A stretch of 64,000 nt of DNA from assembly GCF_009831455.1 (NCBI RefSeq), contig NZ_WOWO01000003.1:558001-622000 (forward strand). The letters run 5' to 3'. Source of the stretch: Salinirussus salinus. Lineage in GTDB: Archaea > Halobacteriota > Halobacteria > Halobacteriales > Haloarculaceae. Shown here piece after piece: positions 23,837 through 55,755 of this stretch (positions are counted from its first letter, which is position 1; every line of letters starts with the position of its first letter). A model generated the notes under the pieces. The model was not told the origin of the DNA, ran no database searches, and saw only the letters and a program-made list of their open reading frames with translations. The position numbers and the translations under genes are program-made.

Positions 23837-23915
23837 ACGCCGAGCGGTCGCGGCAGGGACTTCAAGCTACGTGGTCGGTGCGTCATGTTTGGCCTCCCGG
23901 GAACAGGGCCAACAC

Positions 23916-24066
23916 GAAAGCCCCGTGCCTTTCAGTTCCACCCGAAACCACACACCTCCCCAGCCGACTGCGCTCCTCGTCGCTCGCGGTGCTCGCTCCT
24001 GCGGTGCTCATCCCTCGCACGGCGCCCGTCGCGCGAGGACACGCGCGACGGCGTGCGCCCGAGGTG
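23916..24066 (-). repeat. Dispersed modular hairpin element, copy B (module 2 collapsed)
   Basis: Occupies most of the 348-base gap between two minus-strand genes. Read on the minus strand it has the module-1 hairpin: outer GCACG/CGTGC, and inner CCGTCGCGCG/CGCGCGACGG, a perfect 10-bp stem with a 6-base loop. Then comes the GGCTGGGGAGGTGTGTGG box and GGGTGGAACTGAAAGG. Module 2 is shrunk to a tiny hairpin, GAAAG 23916-23920 with CTTTC 23929-23933 (plus-strand reading). The rest of the gap (24067-24184) holds nothing I recognise. Confidence 0.72.
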
Positions 24067-24184
24067 TTGACCATACGGGTGAGACTGAGAAGGGGGCTTT
24101 CCTGCTGTTCGGAGCTTCCGACTCGGATTCCGCTCTGATTCCCGTACGTCAAAAAATCGGTCGGGGTTGCGTGTGCGAGGCGAC

Positions 24185-53083: not shown

Positions 53084-53815
53084 ATGTCCGAGACACTCGA
53101 CGGACGGACCGCGGTCGTCACCGGCGCGAGTTCCGGGATCGGAGCGGAGAGCGCACGCGCGCTCGCCGACGCCGGTGCGACCGTGGTCCTCGCCGCCCGC
53201 AGCGAGGATGCCATCGAGGAGGTGGCCGCCGATATCCGGGAGACCACAGAGGCCGACGCCGTCGCCGTCCCGACCGACGTGACCGAGGAGGCGGCCGTCG
53301 AGGCGCTGGTCGACGAAGCGGTCGAGACCTTCGGCGGGCTGGACGTACTCGTCAACAACGCAGGCGTCGCCCGCGGCAGCGACGTCGAGGAGATGACCAC
53401 GGAGGAGTACCGGACGATGATGGCGGTCAACGCCGACGGGATGTTCTTCGCCACCCGGGCCGCCCTCCCGCACCTCCGGGAGACGGGCGGGACGCTGGTC
53501 TTCGTCGGCTCCTTCGCCGGGAAGTTCCCCCGGCCGTTCAACCCCGTTTACGCCGCCACCAAGTTCTGGACCCGCGGGTTCGCCCAGAGCGTCTCCGCGC
53601 AGGTCGGCGGGGACGTCGGCGTGACCGTCATCAACCCCTCCGAGGTGCGGACGAAGTTCGGCGACGGCTGGTCGATGGAGGAACTGTACGACGAGGGTGA
53701 GGTTACGGAGCCCGAGGAGGTGGCGGAGGCGGTTGTCTTCGCCGCCGAGTGCTCGCCGTCGATGGTCAGCGAACTCGACCTCTACCGCCGGGACAAGTTC
53801 GAGGACATGTTCTGA
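53084..53815 (+). CDS. Short-chain dehydrogenase/reductase (SDR)
   Basis: A 243-residue Rossmann oxidoreductase. The cofactor motif is 'VVTGASSGIGAESARALADA'. The Arg in 'VVLAARSEDA' (second beta strand) suggests NADP(H) preference. The NNAG motif is 'LVNNAGVARGSD', the catalytic Tyr-x3-Lys is 'YAATKFWTRGFAQS', and the Ser is in 'LVFVGSFAG'. A role as 3-oxoacyl reductase or 3-hydroxyacyl dehydrogenase in this CoA cluster is plausible. ATG at 53084 was preferred; an in-frame start at 53057 lacks support. Confidence 0.93.
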   Translation: MSETLDGRTAVVTGASSGIGAESARALADAGATVVLAARSEDAIEEVAADIRETTEADAVAVPTDVTEEAAVEALVDEAVETFGGLDVLVNNAGVARGSDVEEMTTEEYRTMMAVNADGMFFATRAALPHLRETGGTLVFVGSFAGKFPRPFNPVYAATKFWTRGFAQSVSAQVGGDVGVTVINPSEVRTKFGDGWSMEELYDEGEVTEPEEVAEAVVFAAECSPSMVSELDLYRRDKFEDMF

Positions 53816-53854
53816 GGCGTATGTTGAGCTGGACGTTTCCGAGAGCACTGGGAA

Positions 53855-54074
53855 CAGCGAGAAAGCCCCCGGCGGCTGCCGGCTGCGCCTCGCTGCGCTC
53901 CTCGGTCGCTACACTCCCTGCGGTGCTTACGTCGTCTCGCTCGGCGAGCCGCCGGCCCCTTTCAATCCCGCCCGATTCGGCTGTCCAGGCTGGGCGGGAC
54001 TGAAAGGGGCGACCTGTTCGCCTGCGGTCCTTACGTCGCCCACCGTCGTCGAACAGGTCGGGGCTTTCTCGCTG
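53855..54074. repeat. Dispersed modular hairpin element, copy D (MITE-like, 15-bp perfect terminal inverted repeats)
   Basis: Fills most of the 305-base gap between two convergent genes. The ends are CAGCGAGAAAGCCCC (53855-53869) and its exact complement (54060-54074). Inside are two stem modules: CCGGCGGCT 53869-53877 with AGCCGCCGG 53947-53955, and CGACCTGTTCG 54010-54020 with CGAACAGGTCG 54050-54060. Between the modules lies a central hairpin with 18-base arms (53956-53973 and 53992-54009, one mismatch). Both loops contain CTGCGGT, one base, then CTTACGTCG. No clear target-site duplication is visible. It contains no gene. Confidence 0.78.
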
Positions 54075-54120
54075 TCGTGGAGCGTATCACTGGTGGTCTT
54101 CCCGAACTAGATACCCCAAC

Positions 54121-55755
54121 TCACTCGGCCTCACTCTCCTCCAGCTTGTACCGCTGAACCTTCCCCGTGGCCGTCTTGGGGAGTTCCTCGACGAACTCGA
54201 CGTCCCGGGGGTAGGCGTGGCGGGCCTGCTGTTCCTTGACGTGCTGTTTGATCTCCTCGGCGGCCGCCTCGGGGTCGTCGGGTTGTTCGGTCGGGACGAC
54301 GAAGGCCTTGACCCGCTGGCCGCGTTGCTCGTCCGGCACCCCGACCACGGCGGCCTCGGCCACGATATCCCGCTCCATCAGGCTATTTTCCACCTCGAAG
54401 GGACCGATCCGGTAGCCCGAGGAGATGATCACGTCGTCGCCCCGGCCCTCGTACCAGTAGTAGCCGTCCTCGTCCTGGTGAGCGAGGTCGTCGGTGAGCA
54501 TCCAGCCGTCGTGGAAGGCGGCCTCGGTCTTCTCGGGCATCCCCCAGTACCGGTCCATCAGCAGCCACTCGCGGGGTTTGACCGCGATCTCGCCGGTCTC
54601 GCCTTGCTCGACGGGCTCGCGGGTCTCGGGGTCCAGAAGTGTCACCTCGTAACCGGGACAGGGCAGCCCCATCGACCCCGGCTTCACCTCCACGTCGAGT
54701 CCGGCGTAGTTGTTGACGACCATCCCGCCCTCCGTCAGGCCGTAGCCGTCGTGGACGGTCAGGCCGAAGTGGTCGCGGAACCAGTCGACCACCTCGGGGT
54801 TGAGCGGCTCGCCCGCGCTGTGGAGCACCCGCAGGTCCCCGAAGCTTCGCCCCTCCAGTAGCTCCTCGCCGCCGGCGATGATCCCCCGATAGGCGCTCGG
54901 GGCCGCGCCCAGCACCGAGATGTCGTGGTCGGACAGAATCCCCACCCAGCGGTCGGCGTCGAACTGCCCCGAGTGCAGCACCCGGGTCGCGCCGAAGGCC
55001 ATCGGCGCGAAGCCCGTGGTAAAGAGGCCGAACGACCAGCTCGGGTCGGCCGCCCCCCAGACCACGTCGTCGGGCTGTACGTCGAGGACGTACTTCGTGT
55101 GCGGATACAGCACCGGCAACACCTTGTGCGGGAGGACGACCCCCTTCGGCGGGCCGGTGGTTCCGGAGGTGTACTGCATCGTGCAGGGGTCGTCCATCGA
55201 CGTGCGGGCGACCTCGTAATCGGGCGAGCGGTCGGCGACGAGGTCGCTGTACGTGTGGTCCGCGGCCGGGTCCGCGCCGACGCTGACCGTCGTCAGGTCC
55301 GCGGTGTCGACCGCGGCGACGGTGTCGGCGTGGTCGGCGCCGTAGACCAGCACCTCGGGCTCGGAGTCCTCGACCCGGTACTCCACGGCCCCGGTCTCGA
55401 ACGCCGTAAAGAGCGGGACGTGGACGGCACCGGTCTTCCAGACTCCCAGGATCGTGACGATCGTCTCCGGGACCTTCGGGAGCAGCGTCGTCACGCGGTC
55501 GCCGCGCTCGACGCCCAGTGCTTCGAGCGCGTTCGCCACCTGATTCGAGCGCTCCTGCAGGTCGCCGAAAGTGTACTCCTCCAGACCCCCGTCGGAGTCG
55601 ACCCACGCGAAGCCCACGTCGCCGGAGCCGGCGTGGCGGTCACACGCCTCGTGGGCGACGTTCAGCTCCTCGGGTGCGTCCCAGTCGTAGGTCTCCAGGG
55701 CGTCGCTCCACTCGAAGGCGTCGTACGCGGCCTGGTAGTCGGGCTTGTTCGTCAT
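54121..55755 (-). CDS. Acyl-CoA synthetase (acetyl/medium-chain type)
   Basis: A 544-residue AMP-forming acyl-CoA synthetase of the acetyl/medium-chain branch. The P-loop is 'QYTSGTTGPPKGVVLPHKV', 'WGAADPSWSFGLFTTGFAP' is the second motif, 'VHDGYGLTEGGMVVNNY' the adenine site, and 'GYYWYEGRGDDVIISSGYRI' the hinge. The catalytic Lys is in 'LPKTATGKVQRYKL'. It is separate from the ligases at 10000 and 32271, so the window holds three activating enzymes of different branches. ATG at 55755; a hairpin lies between its TATA and its start. Confidence 0.93.
   Translation of the reverse strand: MTNKPDYQAAYDAFEWSDALETYDWDAPEELNVAHEACDRHAGSGDVGFAWVDSDGGLEEYTFGDLQERSNQVANALEALGVERGDRVTTLLPKVPETIVTILGVWKTGAVHVPLFTAFETGAVEYRVEDSEPEVLVYGADHADTVAAVDTADLTTVSVGADPAADHTYSDLVADRSPDYEVARTSMDDPCTMQYTSGTTGPPKGVVLPHKVLPVLYPHTKYVLDVQPDDVVWGAADPSWSFGLFTTGFAPMAFGATRVLHSGQFDADRWVGILSDHDISVLGAAPSAYRGIIAGGEELLEGRSFGDLRVLHSAGEPLNPEVVDWFRDHFGLTVHDGYGLTEGGMVVNNYAGLDVEVKPGSMGLPCPGYEVTLLDPETREPVEQGETGEIAVKPREWLLMDRYWGMPEKTEAAFHDGWMLTDDLAHQDEDGYYWYEGRGDDVIISSGYRIGPFEVENSLMERDIVAEAAVVGVPDEQRGQRVKAFVVPTEQPDDPEAAAEEIKQHVKEQQARHAYPRDVEFVEELPKTATGKVQRYKLEESEAE

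Follow-up and report, generated by a model that had tools for sequence, protein, structure and literature searches.

The gap at positions 53816-54117 of the window, the 64,000-nucleotide stretch of DNA that was analysed (G000:C3:558001-622000, in a 3.37-Mb genome of four contigs, hereafter the host genome), is very probably occupied by an old and presumably immobile non-autonomous MITE of Halobacteria. It is of the IS6 type, its ends would have been recognised in trans by an archaeal IS6-family transposase, and its hairpin arms stay complementary. The initial annotation had called the element MITE-like, which was right for the family: its copies are dispersed, have IS6-family ends and are accompanied by 8-base target duplications.

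Structure of the copy in the window

The element fills an intergenic gap bounded on one side by the stop codon of an SDR gene (53813-53815) and on the other by that of an acyl-CoA ligase gene (54121-54123). The two stop positions agree with the convergent gap recognized initially. Only small overlapping ORFs were found in the element, and no transposase. The inverted repeats ACAGCGAGAAAGCCCC (53854-53869, + strand; kept in sibling copies) and GGGGCTTTCTCGCTGT (54060-54075, + strand) are complementary at 16 of 16 positions. They had been described as 15-bp perfect terminal repeats; they are indeed perfect, and one base longer, but they are subterminal.

Between these repeats, two hairpin arms flank a central hairpin. 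Arm A (53870-53955) has the outer stem CCGGCGGCT/AGCCGCCGG (53870-53878 with 53947-53955), and arm B (54010-54060) has the stem CGACCTGTTCG/CGAACAGGTCG (54010-54020 with 54050-54060). Both are perfect, over 9 and 11 bp as first proposed, with automatic stem scores of 9/11 for arm A and 10/11 for arm B. The central hairpin (53956-54009) was also recovered, its stems (53956-53973 and 53992-54009) forming 17 of 18 pairs rather than 18. The loop box CCTGCGGTNCTTACGTCG is present twice, as CCTGCGGTGCTTACGTCG in arm A (53917-53934, + strand) and as CCTGCGGTCCTTACGTCG in arm B (54021-54038, + strand), in agreement with the claim of a common box; none of 100 window shuffles had two such matches. A switching fold, in which CTGAAAGGGG would pair alternatively with the terminal GGGGCTTTC, was not borne out. 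Because GGGG cannot pair with GGGG, this second pairing is limited to GAAAG/CTTTC (5 bp), the only part that the two segments have in common, and the minimum-energy folds pair CTGAAAGGGG with its ordinary partner.

Outside the subterminal repeats, homology with sibling copies points to decayed IS6-type ends. The putative left end (GGCGTATGTTGAGCTGG..., 53816-53853), recognized by position and spacing, directly adjoins the SDR stop codon and has a motif score of 9/16, which alone is not above chance. The putative right end (CTAGATACCCC, 54076-54117) scores 10/16. The end scores of this copy are no better than chance, and no target duplication was found around it. The copy is therefore an old one, with intact subterminal repeats, arms scoring 9 and 10 of 11, decayed ends and no duplication.

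Two further stretches of the window are related to the family. Positions 23910-24107 (L184) hold an armless relative, in which the subterminal repeats enclose a central hairpin with a second repeat family inside it, and positions 1673-1748 partially match one element end and arm.

Dispersal, ends and target duplications

A DNA search with the window element gave 58 matches in the host genome, and 40 of 58 relatives had matches too. The subterminal repeat, searched as CAGCAAGAAAGCCCC with up to two mismatches, was found at 58 sites in the host genome, compared with 11 for the backward control. From these sites we assembled 19 inward-facing pairs, ~180-545 bp from repeat to repeat, some of which (e.g., L184) could be assembled only by accepting two mismatches in a repeat. 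The expectation of further copies was thus borne out, with at least 19 paired copies in the host genome and relatives across Halobacteria. Another copy used as query matched 168 of the 194 genomes sampled from the class, and 59 of 66 genera; many of these matches are partial, covering single arms, and are no proof of a complete element. Fourteen of 72,556 plasmids matched, all of them haloarchaeal, and the DL31 plasmid carries a match to the family. Viral carriage was not seen: the phage collection gave no match, and IMG/VR had no exact 19-mer.

The copies are short, lack a transposase gene and lie in unrelated flanks. For example, L302 and L301, which document dispersal between genomes, have 306 bp in common at 88%, their flanks are unrelated, and the similarity stops at the IS6-like ends. 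L300 and L295 share only the body as well (338 bp at 86%); they lie at unrelated sites, differ in the second arm and have ends that are not IS6-like. The outer flanks of these last two are mutually complementary, as if the elements had been inserted in the loop of an older palindrome. The right flank of L320 has a tandem repeat of ~15 bp (GGCGGTCGTGGAGTT) adjoining the element.

Since homology between siblings runs outward, 29-44 bases beyond the subterminal repeats to the IS6-like ends GGYRGTGTTTAGTTAG, the copies do not end where the initial annotation had placed the boundaries. The end motif of the copies is GG(T/C)(A/G)GTGTTTAGTTAG. In 17 of 38 flanks its best score was 11-15 of 16; the 190 control stretches reached 10/16 at most. 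For target duplications we considered 40 elements from the host and related genomes, kept the 16 with recognisable ends on both sides and left out the other 24. Perfect 8-base duplications were found in six of the 16 (L033, L175, L187, L302, L309 and L313), compared with 0 of 560 cross-paired flanks. The short target duplications anticipated at the outset therefore exist in the family, but not at the window copy. In addition, L170 has an 8-base repeat adjoining a variant end, and L337 has one, recognized by eye, beside GTGTTCAG ends.

Loci with an IS6-type transposase (PF13610) were examined in 33 genomes; not all of these loci gave recognisable ends. The IS6-family elements L246, L260 and L262 have the ends GGCGGTGTTTAGTTAAG/GGTAGTGTTTAGTTT, the same as the GGYRGTGTTTAGTTAG of the MITE copies, and L262 has a target duplication of 8/8. 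In the GTGTTCAG subgroup (L238, L255, L267, L270 and L271) the ends are GGCGGTGTTCAGATAAG/GGTAGTGTTCAGATAA or close variants, and all duplications are 8/8. Because haloarchaeal IS6-family transposons have the same ends and 8-base duplications, we assign the family to the IS6-type MITEs. The GG tips and 8-bp repeats by which IS6 elements are recognized, according to the accessible part of PMC7986276, are both found here. PMC6807381, as far as its accessible text goes, argues for separating the archaeal members from the IS6 family.

A search of the host genome for an intact transposase of the matching subgroup found none. This genome has a single decayed IS6 copy of the GTGTTCAG type, besides an intact IS6 with another type of ends, GGCACTGTCTAG. 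The decayed transposase, with GTGTTCA-type ends (G000:C3:227793-228373, L176 region), lies ~1 kb from one MITE copy. The initial annotation had suggested looking for a transposase with matching ends; IS6-family elements of other genomes encode one, and the host genome may have lost its trans-acting source.

The IS6-like ends are not universal. Similar bodies with other ends were found in the L300/L295 pair and in genomes G031, G013 and G008, in which CAGCGTGAAAGCCCC or CACCTCGAAAGCCCC take the place of the subterminal repeats and inspection by eye showed no IS6-like ends. IS6 ends are therefore not a defining trait of the entire interior family.

Presence and absence at orthologous gaps, also suggested initially, gave no clean empty site: neither for L033 (host genome) nor for L187 (in G001) did we find a complete match of both flanks. 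For the window copy, the closest protein match of the neighbouring ligase was in a Salinirussus MAG (87%). The locus scan with this protein gave L090 as the one close relative, besides 79 distant loci, which were left out. In L090, a Salinirussus MAG, the ligase gene lies next to that of acyl-CoA dehydrogenase, and neither the SDR gene nor the element is present, hence this is not a clean empty site either.

Turnover and complementarity of the hairpin arms

The arms sit between GAAAGCCCC and CCCCTTTC. They vary in sequence among copies but remain self-complementary. In the host genome, 9.7 of 11 positions were paired in 45 arms, which have 32 different left stems, compared with 6.35 for mixed halves; in the relatives, 61 arms with 48 left stems had 10.2 of 11, compared with 6.57. 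These values include some stem scores of 5-6 that reflect a parser halting at an inner CCCTTC (e.g., in 64-nt arms of L187, L186 and L181), not broken stems. The short form of the loop box, T(G/C)CTT(A/G)CGTCG with at most one mismatch, was found forward in 106 of 136 arms and backward in four, and in one of 307 control stretches. Small perfect hairpins numbered 45 in the 6,705 bp of the 19 elements, compared with 76 in 110,200 bp of flank.

Several comparisons document change within the body. The same arm, GACCTGTTCGA, has different partner arms in L179, L185 and L186. A second haloarchaeal repeat with its own hairpin, CCACAYRCCTCCCCAGCCGA...GCGCGCGCC, is found in the central loop of the element or in place of its second half (L171, L174, L176, L181, L183, L184, L189, L194, L203, L207 and L209). 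L290 and L291 (= L035 and L032), from two genomes of one genus, occupy the same insertion site, at which small hairpins were gained or lost: their alignment has, in one arm, two hairpin-bearing stretches present in only one genome. L294 and L292 also share a site, with flanks 81% and 91% alike over 700 bp, while the interior matches at 62% in flank orientation and at 80% after inversion. In this pair, the body has flipped between the subterminal repeats.

Elements with decayed ends had a mean stem score of 9.73/11 (11 stems), and those with recognisable ends 9.59/11 (17 stems), the parser-lowered scores being kept in both means. Stems are thus equally good in elements with decayed ends, so loss of mobility does not simply entail loss of the fold. 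In our view, the palindromic state of the arms is preserved in the DNA itself, whether through inverted-repeat correction, through selection for a structure that can fold, or through both, and does not depend on mobility.

An IS6-type MITE would account for these observations as follows. An archaeal IS6-family transposase would act in trans on the element ends and put copies into intergenic DNA, making the 8-base duplications. Recombination would swap arms among copies, small hairpin insertions would make arms grow, and recombination between the subterminal repeats could invert the interior.

The strength of the fold invites the reading that the interior functions as a structured RNA, or as a structure of mRNA 3' ends, which spread on the MITE and is under selection. 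The window copy has RNA fold z-scores of -8.3 (+ strand) and -9.4 (- strand), with 0 of 200 shuffles folding equally well on either strand. Complementarity held over all the distinct left stems of the host genome and its relatives, the conserved loop box and stems intact despite decayed ends speak for the same reading. The base pairs covary, as in a structured RNA; upkeep at the DNA level could also hold the pairing. Against it, there is no consistent strand preference. Of 98 short arms, 49 fold better as the reverse strand and 47 as the forward strand. The other strand signals are mixed: GU per pair is 0.073 forward and 0.032 reverse, mean z favours the reverse strand (-4.35 vs -3.46; 44 of 60 arms tested), and distinct stem pairs have 25 A.C mismatches vs eight G.T, many at the last stem position. 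Orientation toward genes is mixed, and no Rfam family came near its gathering score, the two weak matches (mir-4436 and M23) being far below theirs. We consider an RNA function less likely than not. Somewhat more credible, though still tentative, is a pan-haloarchaeal modular hairpin body with covarying exchangeable arms and a conserved loop box, which may be selected or maintained as DNA or RNA structure and carried by several unrelated end sets, including the IS6 type.

The position of the window copy between two convergent stop codons would suit a bidirectional transcription terminator. With only four of 19 host-genome copies in convergent gaps (nine tandem, six divergent), this position is not a family property. 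The other gaps in the same loci are 19 convergent, 40 tandem and 12 divergent, as called with a simple codon-score gene finder. The gene context is thus like that of any intergenic gap, the copies are not concentrated in convergent ones, and we rejected the terminator as very improbable. It is hardly credible that the element belongs to the PATE or IS200/IS605 type, moved as single-stranded DNA via hairpin recognition: it is hairpin-rich, short and non-coding, like the Haloquadratum PATEs, but the copies with IS6-like ends have terminal inverted repeats and target duplications, and the accessible description of PATEs reports neither (PMC3119063). For the copies with other ends, such a mode of movement may still apply.

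For the IS6-type MITE, we hold that either selection or inverted-repeat correction keeps up its hairpin body; the data fit both.

Relation to known repeats and insertion sequences

A known transposon family would explain a large, apparently unnamed share of the intergenic repeats of Halobacteria. We found no published description of this family in the literature searched, which lay largely outside subscription journals. Inversion at the same site, hairpin gain and loss at the same site, and arm reassortment provide clear cases for asking by what means long inverted repeats stay perfect. The question they pose is whether stems remain perfect during sequence turnover through selection on the fold, or through copying correction without selection.

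Bacterial BOX and REP/BIME elements are modular intergenic palindromes that occur in many combinations. The present family has IS6-like ends and 8-base duplications. Haloarchaeal IS6-family insertion sequences have the same terminal motif and 8-base target duplication as the MITE, but they encode a transposase of ~210-230 residues, and the MITE resembles them only in the terminal ~16-18 bases. A candidate counterpart is MITEHarch3, in which we take "Harch" to stand for halophilic archaeon. Two IS6-family MITEs, of 227 and 336 bp, are on record in ISfinder, and MITEBth2 and MITEHarch3 are named in the accessible parts of PMC7986276 and PMC6807381. They are likewise transposase-less and filed with the IS6 family; exchangeable hairpin arms do not feature in the accessible descriptions. 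The MITEs, SMRs and PATEs of Haloquadratum walsbyi are also short, non-coding and numerous mobile repeats. According to the accessible text on them, the ends of SMRs are unrelated to transposons and lack target duplications, and PATEs have no terminal inverted repeats, both unlike the present family, with its IS6-like inverted ends and 8-base duplications (PMC3119063).
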